The notes under the pieces are model-generated. The model saw only the letters and a list, made by a program, of their open reading frames with translations. It had not been told where the DNA came from and ran no database searches. A stretch of 64,000 bases of DNA. Origin: Desulfocurvibacter africanus subsp. africanus DSM 2603 (GTDB lineage Bacteria > Desulfobacterota > Desulfovibrionia > Desulfovibrionales > Desulfovibrionaceae). Positions 260 through 32,559 of the stretch are shown piece after piece. The stretch covers positions 62,001 to 126,000 of the forward strand of contig NZ_AULZ01000011.1 of NCBI RefSeq assembly GCF_000422545.1, read 5' to 3'. A program made the position numbers and the translations under genes. Each line of letters begins with the position of its first letter. Positions within the stretch are counted from its first letter, which is position 1.

Positions 260-300
260 GACAAGCCTCCTTTGGCTAAGACTCGGCGGAAAACGCCTGT

Positions 301-423
301 TAGAGCAGATTGCTTTTATGACGCCCGCTCCGGCGTTGACGACGCAAGTGAATTGCGCCTGCGCGGCTGCAAGCCATGCCGACGCACGGCTTGCAGAGCA
401 TTTTCAAAAAGCAAAATGCTCTA
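301..423 (+). repeat. TA-flanked hairpin repeat, copy 1 (MITE-like)
   Basis: Begins TAGAGCAGATTGCTTTT and ends AAAGCAAAATGCTCTA, giving near-perfect terminal inverted repeats of about 17 bp with TA at both outer ends. The interior holds a GCGCAA/TTGCGC type hairpin and an AAGCCATGC-type stem, as in the copies at 7458, 22883 and 32399. It lies about 40 bp upstream of the MBL hydrolase start and has no coding content of its own. Confidence 0.9.
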
Positions 424-7227: not shown

Positions 7228-7457
7228 GGCAATACCTGCTGAGTTGCTGGCCGAGTCCTGGTTTCAAGCGTCCATCAGGGATTCAAACCGCAAGATCCCG
7301 ACCGCCTTGATTCTCCTCTCTTCCACTACGTGGGTTCTGCTTCCAAAGATGGGCGGGATCATCCTGTTTACATTACTACACCTGAAGGCAAGCCAAGGCC
7401 AAGCATCCTCAGCCAAACTTTAGGCCCTGAGATTTCTCCCCCTGACAGCGCAGTTGC

Positions 7458-7586
7458 TAGAGCAGATTGCTTTTAAGACGCCCGCTCCGGCGTTGACGGC
7501 GCAAGTGAATTGCGCCTACGCCGAAGCTAGCGGCAAGCCATGCCGACGCATGGCTTGCAGAGCATTTTCATAAGCAAAATGCTCTA
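7458..7586 (+). repeat. TA-flanked hairpin repeat, copy 2
   Basis: A full-length element of 129 bp. The interior has a perfect 11-bp stem GCAAGCCATGC/GCATGGCTTGC, and the ends are TAGAGCAGATTGCTTTT and AAGCAAAATGCTCTA. It occupies the middle of the 480-bp space between the histidine kinase and the lipid A acyltransferase gene. Nothing else was recognised in that space. Confidence 0.92.
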
Positions 7587-11325: not shown

Positions 11326-11958
11326 ATGCCCCATAGGCATTTGGATTGCAAGGGTCTGGCTTGTCCAGGGCCGGTTCTGGAATGCAAGCGGCTCATCGAT
11401 TCCCAACAGCCGGATTGCCTGACCGTAACCGTGGATAACGAGGCCGCCAAGGAAAATGTCAGCAGGTTTCTAAAAAATCAAGGCTACACCATCACCACGG
11501 AATCGGCTGGCGATGGAGTGTGGAGCATTGCTGGAAATCGCGTGACTTCCACTACCGGCGGGAAGCCGGATGGTTGCGCCGAGTGCGCGGTCATGCCTGA
11601 CGATGAACTTGCCCGACTCGCGCGGAAAACCGTGGTCTTTATCACTGCGGACACAATTGGCCGTGGCGATGAAACTCTGGGTAGCAAGCTCATGAAGAGT
11701 TTTCTGTCCACCCTGCCTGAACTGGGCGAGGAACTCTGGCGCGTCATCTTGCTCAACAGCGGTGTCCGGCTGACTATCCAAGACAGCCCTGTTTTAGACG
11801 AACTCAAACGCATCGAGGATTCGGGTGTGACCATCCTGGTTTGCGGCACCTGCCTTGATTTCTTCGGCCTTCTGGCTAAAAAGGCCGTAGGAGACACGAC
11901 CAATATGCTGGATGTGGTCACAAGTCTGCAATTAGCCAACAAGGTTATTCAGATCTGA
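11326..11958 (+). CDS. yedF: Sulfurtransferase-like selenium metabolism protein YedF
   Basis: Two domains are visible. The N-terminal 75 residues are a TusA/SirA-like fold with the CPxP active-site motif (DCKGLACPGPVLECKRL). The C-terminal half is a DsrE-like domain with TADTIGRGDETLGSKLMKSFL and ITILVCGTCLDFFG-type elements (here VTILVCGTCLDFFG). This two-domain form is typical of anaerobes that make selenoproteins and often sits near selD; no other selenium gene is in the window. The start at 11326 has AAGGAGG seven bases upstream. The frame opens 54 bases earlier without a ribosome site. Confidence 0.9.
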   Translation: MPHRHLDCKGLACPGPVLECKRLIDSQQPDCLTVTVDNEAAKENVSRFLKNQGYTITTESAGDGVWSIAGNRVTSTTGGKPDGCAECAVMPDDELARLARKTVVFITADTIGRGDETLGSKLMKSFLSTLPELGEELWRVILLNSGVRLTIQDSPVLDELKRIEDSGVTILVCGTCLDFFGLLAKKAVGDTTNMLDVVTSLQLANKVIQI

Positions 11959-12006
11959 GCACAGCCTCTCGTCGAAATTCGACTACACTTTCCTCTTTTC
12001 TGATAA

Positions 12007-12031
12007 GGGCCCCTTCCGATAGAAGGGGCCC
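12007..12031 (+). promoter_or_regulatory. Perfect hairpin abutting the rluB-like start codon
   Basis: GGGCCCCTTC, loop CGATA, GAAGGGGCCC: a perfect 10-bp stem with a 5-nt loop whose last base is immediately before the ATG at 12032. The right arm contains the only purine-rich ribosome-site candidate (GAAGGGG), so the folded form would hide it. No U-tract follows, so this is not a normal terminator for yedF. Confidence 0.8.
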
Positions 12032-12796
12032 ATGCGACTAAACAAAGCATTGGCCATGGCTGGGGTCTGCTCTCGACGTAAGGCAGATGAGCTTGTTTTT
12101 GCCGGTAATGTAGCTGTTAACGGCATCACAGCCTCGTCCCCTGGCATACAGGTCGATCCCCAGAATGACATCGTCACCGTGTTCGGCAAACCGGTGGCGT
12201 TTCTCCCTCAAGAGGGGCAAGCTACGGAGCATGCCTACTATATGCTGAACAAGCCAGTCGAAGTAGTGACCACTGCCAGCGATCCACAGGGCCGGCGAAC
12301 CGTGCTGGAAATCTTGCCCGAGGAGGTACGCAAGAGGCGTGTTTTTCCCGTTGGTCGTTTGGATTTCTTCTCCGAAGGCCTTCTCCTACTGACTTCCGAT
12401 GGTGACTTGACCTATCGCATGACGCACCCGCGCTATCATTTGCCTAAGGTCTATGAAGTGCTGGTTCGCGGTGAAGTGACCAGGGACAAGCTTGAGGCCA
12501 TGCGCCGGGGCATGACCTTGGCTGAAGGCGAGAAACTCGCTCCAGTGGAGGTCAAGGTTTTGGATAAACAGATGCTTGGCAAGACCCTTCTGGAATTGAC
12601 GCTCATTCAAGGCATCAATCGACAGATAAGGCGCATGTGCCGCGATTTAGGCCTTACGGTGCTCAAACTCCGACGCACCTGTGAAGGTCCGCTCTCCCTG
12701 GGCGCGCTTCCTACTGGAAAACTCAGGACCCTGACTCCCGCTGAAGTCAAGGTCCTGAAGACAGCCGTGGCCGTCGGTATTCCCGGCTCTGAATAG
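12032..12796 (+). CDS. rluB: Pseudouridine synthase, RluB/RsuA family
   Basis: The enzyme converts a uridine in rRNA to pseudouridine. An N-terminal S4 RNA-binding domain (MRLNKALAMAGVCSRRKADEL) is followed by the catalytic domain with VFPVGRLDFFSEGLLLLTSDG, which holds the active-site Asp (GRLD), and the C-terminal QGINRQIRRM block. Length 254 fits the 23S-specific RluB type better than RsuA. The start codon is directly preceded by a perfect hairpin. The stop codon abuts the stop of the convergent lolA gene, TAG next to CTA. Confidence 0.9.
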   Translation: MRLNKALAMAGVCSRRKADELVFAGNVAVNGITASSPGIQVDPQNDIVTVFGKPVAFLPQEGQATEHAYYMLNKPVEVVTTASDPQGRRTVLEILPEEVRKRRVFPVGRLDFFSEGLLLLTSDGDLTYRMTHPRYHLPKVYEVLVRGEVTRDKLEAMRRGMTLAEGEKLAPVEVKVLDKQMLGKTLLELTLIQGINRQIRRMCRDLGLTVLKLRRTCEGPLSLGALPTGKLRTLTPAEVKVLKTAVAVGIPGSE

Positions 12797-22681: not shown

Positions 22682-23098
22682 ATGGCTCCCAGCAGTAGAC
22701 GAGGAGCCACGAGAAAAGGCCGTTTTTCAGACGAGCAGATGGTGAACATCCTTGCGCGAGACCGACCGCGGTCCGGTGGCGCAGGTTGCCAAGCAGCACG
22801 GCATCAACGAGTGGACCATCTACACCTGACGAAAGAGCTTCGGCGGCATGCGTGCCTACGAGGTCAAGGAGCTGCGACAGTTTAGAGCAGATTGCTTTTT
22901 AAGACGCCCGCTCCGGCGTTGACGGCGCAAGTGAATTGCGCCTACGCCTACGCGGCGGCAAGCATGCCGACGCATGGCTTGCAGAGCATTTTCAAAAGCA
23001 AAATGCTCTAAAGGAGAGAATGGCCACCTCAAGAAGCTCCTTGCTGAGCGCAACCTTAAAGTTGAGGCCCTGAAGGAGATCACTGCAAGAAAATGGTA
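22682..23098 (+). pseudogene. IS3-family OrfA remnant, interrupted by repeat copy 3
   Basis: Reads MAPSSRRGATRKGRFSDEQM and VNIL, then a one-base insertion near 22757, then RETDRGPVAQVAKQHGINEW and TIYT-stop. The stop stands where W is normal in the IS3 helix-turn-helix segment TIYTWRK. It continues RKSFGGMRAYEVKELRQ up to the repeat at 22883-23010 and resumes after it as ENGHLKKLLAERNLKVEALK, the leucine-zipper end of OrfA, closing with TAG at 23096. Dropping the repeat plus one TA gives LRQFKGENGHLKKL in frame. Confidence 0.88.
22883..23010 (+). repeat. TA-flanked hairpin repeat, copy 3, inserted in IS3 orfA
   Basis: A 128-bp element, TAGAGCAGATTGCTTTT to AAAAGCAAAATGCTCTA (15 of 17 arm bases pair). 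It splits the leucine-zipper part of the IS3 orfA remnant. Removing the element with one of the two flanking TA dinucleotides rejoins CAG TTT AAA GGA GAG AAT, an open and sensible OrfA reading. This is direct evidence of insertion with TA duplication. Confidence 0.95.
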
Positions 23099-32398: not shown

Positions 32399-32526
32399 TA
32401 GAGCATTTTGCTTTTGAAAATGCTCTGCAAGCCATGCGTCGGCATGGCTTGCCGCCGCGTAGGCGTAGGCGCAATTCACTTGCGCCGTCAACGCCGGAGC
32501 GGGCGTCTTAAAAGCAATCTGCTCTA
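32399..32526 (-). repeat. TA-flanked hairpin repeat, copy 4 (inverted)
   Basis: Full-length 128-bp copy in the opposite orientation: TAGAGCATTTTGCTTTTG at the left and AAAAGCAATCTGCTCTA at the right. Internal stems GCAAGCCATGC/GCATGGCTTGC and GGCGCAA/TTGCGCC are conserved. It is inserted 18 bases past the tatA terminator. Confidence 0.93.
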
Positions 32527-32529
32527 GAC

Positions 32530-32559
32530 TGTTGAAAACCGTTCTGGACTTTTTCAACA
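32530..32559. terminator. Hairpin downstream of pgsA
   Basis: TGTTGAAAA...TTTTCAACA, a 9-bp inverted repeat with a 12-nt loop. It lies 66 bases beyond the pgsA stop, on the side where pgsA transcription would end, and could serve as its terminator. Confidence 0.45.

Follow-up and report, generated by a model that had tools for sequence, protein, structure and literature searches.

The perfect hairpin that abuts the start codon of a pseudouridine synthase gene in Desulfocurvibacter africanus resembles a lineage-specific fold-back copy more than a conserved control switch. In the reading that we favor, with a probability of slightly under one half, a lineage-specific template-switch inverted copy moved the start of the gene to the ATG at position 12032 of the window (the whole 64,000-nucleotide stretch analyzed) and left behind a passive brake on read-through mRNA. 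We found no evidence for a dedicated regulator of the hairpin, and a stem that hides the Shine-Dalgarno (SD) sequence of read-through transcripts is already a known kind of structure, described in phage T4. The original prediction was thus confirmed as an observation; its interpretation was partly supported, as regards occlusion of the SD (as a prediction), and partly not, as regards autoregulation and coupling to the upstream gene.

Position, sequence, and predicted fold of the hairpin

The gene (12032 to 12796, + strand) encodes an RsuA/RluB/RluF-family pseudouridine synthase of 254 amino acids with S4 and PseudoU_synth_2 domains, and its product matches TIGR00093 above cut-off. The RluB, RluF, RsuA, and RluE equivalog models all match below their own cut-offs; as far as sequence goes the subfamily is not fixed, and "rluB" serves here as a shorthand label. 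Upstream and codirectional lies yedF (11326 to 11958, + strand, its start taken as ATG 11326), which encodes a sulfurtransferase-like selenium metabolism protein with a TusA-like domain (TIGR03527, E value 3.6e-65). The gap between the two genes is 73 nt, of which 48 nt separate the yedF stop codon from the hairpin; it also holds a short palindrome, GTCGAAATTCGAC (11971 to 11983, + strand), which occurs exactly once in the genome. The start of rluB is probably ATG 12032, because the Pfam S4 domain is matched from the first residue of the product onward and a TAG in frame with the gene (12020 to 12022) lies at the junction of loop and 3' arm, where the end of the loop and G12022 close the synthase frame upstream.

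The hairpin occupies 12007 to 12031 (+ strand) and consists of a 5' arm, GGGCCCCTTC (12007 to 12016), a loop, CGATA (12017 to 12021), and a 3' arm, GAAGGGGCCC (12022 to 12031), which would be the newly copied arm in the reading given above. All 10 pairs are Watson-Crick, as expected from the perfect, GC-rich 10-bp stem first described; the single base that had been placed between stem and start codon has to be corrected to none, the 3' arm running directly into ATG 12032. The 3' arm does take up the SD candidate, AAGGGG (12023 to 12028), 3 nt ahead of the ATG. Against an anti-SD string, AAGGGG scores −7.1 kcal/mol, a value equalled or bettered by 43% of 332 open reading frames (ORFs) of at least 450 nt, a comparison that favors those ORFs, since for each the best-scoring candidate start was used. 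Folded alone, the hairpin has a predicted energy of −20.6 kcal/mol, and the leader fold has a z score of −2.95 against shuffled sequences. Rfam covariance models gave no match to the hairpin; the sole match was to a miRNA model, elsewhere and far below its gathering score (E value 4.2).

The hairpin is single-copy, with one site within 3 mismatches in the window genome; that it might be a dispersed repeat was ruled out on this count. The 3' arm together with the ATG (AAGGGGCCCATG) likewise has one exact site in the genome, and 46 sites fall within one mismatch; the same pattern read backwards has 5 sites within one mismatch versus 46 forward, a difference that perhaps reflects base composition.

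Perfect stems across the genome

The window contains 15 perfect stems of 10 bp or more (loop of 3 to 8 nt), compared with an average of 0.33 over 40 sequences from a first-order Markov model; a dispersed repeat accounts for 6 of the 15. Across 464 kb of the genome, window included, we counted 102 such stems, 43 of them flagged as dispersed repeat, and ORFs of at least 250 amino acids contain 14 (3 from the dispersed repeat) compared with 3.3 in 30 synonymous shuffles. Since stems are over-represented in this genome, a perfect stem is in itself ordinary here, and it is the placement that is unusual. In a set of 389 ORFs, which are greedy calls and not curated genes, as are the other ORF sets used here, no perfect stem of 9 bp or more other than the rluB hairpin directly adjoins the first start; one overlaps the start codon of its ORF, and three stop 5 to 8 nt short of the start. 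By folding energy, the rluB start region ranks 10th of 379.

Other inverted repeats were encountered in the same genome. Perfect stems of 25, 22, and 20 bp occur at loci L094 (15188 to 15240), L095 (15850 to 15897), and L084 (13657 to 13699), and a stem class of the form CTGGAGAGGGGC..GCCCCTCTCCAG recurs. A dispersed element of about 130 nt with two terminal hairpins, perfect in most copies, lies at window positions 298 to 422, 7455 to 7585, and 22881 to 23009 (+ strand), with a further copy at about 32400 to 32530 (− strand). From 375 first-look candidates for this element in the genome, 40 matches were scored, at 97 to 100% identity, and the copy number may reach hundreds; weaker matches were found in 7 of 58 other genomes, the best at 82% (G029).

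Predicted effect on translation

Opening the SD candidate and the AUG is predicted to cost 18.4 to 20.3 kcal/mol in read-through transcripts (range over nine assumed 5' ends, the first at 11326 and the last at 12007). In our folding model the stem would therefore strongly impede initiation at ATG 12032, and poor translation of read-through mRNA is to be expected from so high an opening cost; the block to initiation originally proposed thus stands as a prediction. That a ribosome arriving from yedF could open the stem, as had also been suggested, seems unlikely, since the yedF stop lies 48 nt before it. We looked for a figure linking stability to yield in the accessible part of PMC4611024 and found none there, and transcript maps of Desulfovibrio were sought in the literature, from which nothing was used for the present locus.

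Search for the hairpin in relatives of other genera

The start regions of homologous genes were compared first at 50 loci (the window locus and 49 relatives) and then at 114 (the window locus and 113 relatives, 94 from the family and 19 from other families of the order). The window genome is the only member of its genus in the comparison, the relatives all belonging to other genera with protein identities of at most 65%, and the 113 are a non-random sample made up mostly of best matches and genera of interest. The named close relatives proved to be distant only (27 to 45% identity) and were left out. The rluB hairpin was not seen ahead of the gene in the 49 relatives, nor in the 113, none of them of the same genus. 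Among 288 family genomes, the exact 10-bp arms GGGCCCCTTC/GAAGGGGCCC were found only in the window genome and one other, G066, where they occur three times (L078, L079, and L080), each time inside longer stems; because the arms are embedded in longer arms, these copies are probably unrelated.

What most of the relatives do have is room for an N-terminal extension: an in-frame ATG lies within 110 nt upstream at 93 of the 114 loci, and the codon that matches ATG 12032 is often one for Ile, Val, or Leu. The window gene has no such extension, its upstream frame being closed by the TAG at the loop/arm junction. A PSD-like motif occurs in the extensions at 8 of the 114 loci, from three genera, which is too few to prove homology.

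A fold-back inverted copy as the proposed origin of the hairpin

We propose that a replicating strand folded back and that GCCCCTTC served a second time as template, yielding GAAGGGGC beyond the 5-nt loop CGATA. The new arm would have thrown a former N-terminal extension out of frame, so that the gene would now start at ATG 12032, and it would have provided the SD candidate yet locked it in the 10-bp stem. The result would be a passive brake, with yedF read-through mRNA translated poorly and better yield requiring transcription to begin within the stem or downstream of it. One arm is indeed the exact reverse complement of its neighbor (10 of 10 pairs), but this is true of any perfect stem and is weak evidence alone.

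A trace of the older frame may survive at 12000 to 12021 (+ strand; CTG ATA AGG GCC CCT TCC GAT A), which is suggestive of ancestral sequence from an N-terminal extension. When the 8-nt GAAGGGGC is left out, 12000 to 12021 aligns with the beginning of the extension in six species that belong to a single clade, at 15 to 17 of 22 nt (extension sequences such as MPNAPSDTIRLNK and ATGCCCAACGCCCCTTCCGATA), with CTG 12000 over the ATG of the six species, all at one offset. This offset, −2, is the best of 91 by mean identity (z score of 4.1), and the observed match was reached by 2 of 400 codon permutations at offset −2 and by 7 of 400 at any offset. Against this, a base-shuffled probe gave a mean of 1.2 and up to 9 matches of at least 14 of 22 nt in 200 trials, compared with 8 observed, six of them from the one clade. 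The match may be due to chance, because the matching species form a single clade, this clade lies away from the window genome on an RluB tree with an unresolved backbone (43 of the 114 rows, the rest having no hand-entered genome label or being shorter than 225 amino acids), and sister species in the genus of the matching clade have quite different extensions. Six species from a single clade (L119, L121, L122, L131, L132, and L133) have a GGGGC ahead of the start ATG that would, by prediction, pair with GCCCC in codons of the extension, giving an SD-region hairpin of another shape.

It is unlikely, in our estimate, that the whole chain was the work of one event, that is, that a single fold-back destroyed the extension, created a start with its SD, and locked that SD, converting a coupled gene into a transcript-gated one. 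Comparable fold-back events could have arisen independently in this gap in other genera. If the proposed origin is right, rluB would be a compact case in which one template-switch mutation shifts a start codon and imposes RNA control, and it would also caution against taking every perfect hairpin at a ribosome site for a selected regulator.

Alternative explanations

The hairpin could instead be the 3'-end stem of the yedF transcript, terminator-like or decay-blocking, that lies near the rluB start because the gap is short; we consider this somewhat unlikely. Its strength comes from the stretches between the yedF stop and the conserved RLNK codon in other species. yedF was found upstream at 74 of the 114 loci, of which 5 with an interval above 260 nt were excluded, and stem statistics were taken from 46 stretches of 45 to 200 nt, coding extensions and the window's own stretch included. 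Perfect stems of at least 8 bp occur in 15 of the 46 (0.8 expected) and stems of at least 10 bp in 11 (0.01 expected), with mostly unrelated sequences; 7 of the 15 begin 8 to 14 nt past the yedF stop, and one (L152) has a terminator-like T run. For comparison, 7 of 61 codirectional gaps of the window genome contain a stem of at least 8 bp and 5 contain one of at least 10 bp (window gap included), these gaps being measured to the first ORF start, with repeat-bearing gaps dropped, under a slightly different definition from that of the 46 stretches. Stems are thus common in such gaps and perhaps more so between yedF and rluB, the species compared being non-independent. This stretch, where unrelated strong stems recur family-wide, would lend itself to work on the origin and turnover of such stems. 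The rluB hairpin shares with intrinsic terminators a GC-rich stem past a stop codon; however, intrinsic terminators have a T tract, whereas the tail here (ATGCGACT) has none and the next start codon follows the stem directly, with the SD of that gene lying inside the stem. Of the 14 other stems with 8 bp or more, moreover, 10 begin closer to the yedF stop than this one, which starts 48 nt past it.

Rather improbable, in our view, is a read-through gate of the phage T4 kind, with a promoter just upstream of the hairpin, so that transcripts starting inside the stem are translated and yedF read-through is not. There is precedent for it in the T4 genes I-TevI, soc, and e, at least in the portion of PMC2988022 available to us, and an AT-rich run precedes GATAAG (12002 to 12007). 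The predicted opening cost also falls to 10.3 kcal/mol with a 5' end at 12013 and to 8.1 to 8.3 kcal/mol with a 5' end in the loop; the original prediction had named a start inside the stem as its refuting case, and such a start would cut the cost to about 8 to 10 kcal/mol. Even so, short transcripts are still predicted to pair over the AUG: with a 5' end at 12013, an alternative, weaker pairing spans 12027 to 12055 (+ strand), joining 12027 to 12030 with 12052 to 12055 and 12032 to 12035 with 12047 to 12050. A consensus scan of the yedF-rluB gap, confined to sigma-70-type promoters, returned no promoter-like site at the set threshold, either inside the stem or elsewhere in the gap, and the candidate read by hand, TCGACT-17-GATAAG, matches the consensus at 8 of 12 positions and is without the final T.

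That the gene family has retained a translational control element at this place, autoregulatory or not, is very unlikely. The idea of conserved pairing fared unevenly: the same hairpin was not seen in the 113 relatives (none of the same genus), an outcome that the original prediction had listed as refuting, but other stems lie at most 3 nt from the spot in three species of two genera. Two of these (L004 and L125, both of genus g3) share an 8-bp stem with a 5-nt loop, placed 48 nt past the yedF stop and directly against the RINK codons, in which one paired change has occurred (A-T versus G-C); read by hand, this difference also alters two residues (Glu/Gly and Leu/Pro), and it could be a template-switch correction of the inverted repeat. 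The third species (L115), from a different genus, carries a stem of 11 bp closed by a 9-nt loop and ending 3 nt ahead of the homologous codon, and with G-U pairs allowed, weaker stems among the 50 loci end at most 5 nt from the codon in L010, L013, and L061 and cross it in L054. The best-matching proteins for the rluB product include those of L004, L114, L115, and L125. Against such an element, the stems of L004, L125, and L115 lie within a coding extension and end about 60 nt downstream of its ATG, and perfect stems near the codon are rare: those of at least 7 bp with a loop of 3 to 8 nt (a limit that misses L115) end at most 5 nt from the codon at 3 of 114 loci and stand against a candidate start ATG at 1 of 101. 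The same-spot stems point either to a constraint of some sort or to a mutational process that recurs, the two being inseparable here.

The more specific proposal that the enzyme controls its own translation by binding the stem found no support. The longest words shared with E. coli 16S and 23S rRNA, which were used as a stand-in because the 23S rRNA of the window genome was not found, are 7 nt, and 237 and 283 of 300 shuffled hairpins, respectively, share 7-nt words equally, so that the likeness is not beyond chance; an rRNA mimic was rejected accordingly. In the part of PMC3919597 consulted, the stem-loop bound by RluB has a bulge and seven pairs, whereas the hairpin at the rluB start has no bulge.

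Finally, a DNA operator, that is, a 25-bp dyad bound by a repressor, is highly implausible, as the perfect dyad does lie just downstream of an AT-rich run, a feature of sequence only, but no second dyad site within 3 mismatches exists in the genome.

Comparison with known systems

Set beside known systems, the favored fold-back origin has its closest counterpart in template switching, which has been reported to create perfect hairpins (PMC8794818, seen in part). As far as the consulted portion of that paper goes, the cases described there resemble the rluB hairpin in being perfect, single-copy stems in which one arm can be read as the reverse-complement copy of its neighbor; they differ in that they draw on reconstructed ancestral sequences, whereas the ancestor of the rluB start region would have to be read from distant relatives only. 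The proposed brake has its counterpart in phage T4. According to the accessible part of PMC2988022, an internal late promoter of I-TevI yields transcripts too short to form the stem, a promoter for which the sigma-70 scan found no equivalent in the rluB gap; like the rluB hairpin, however, the hairpins of I-TevI, soc, and e are stable stems that cover the SD beside the AUG in longer transcripts.
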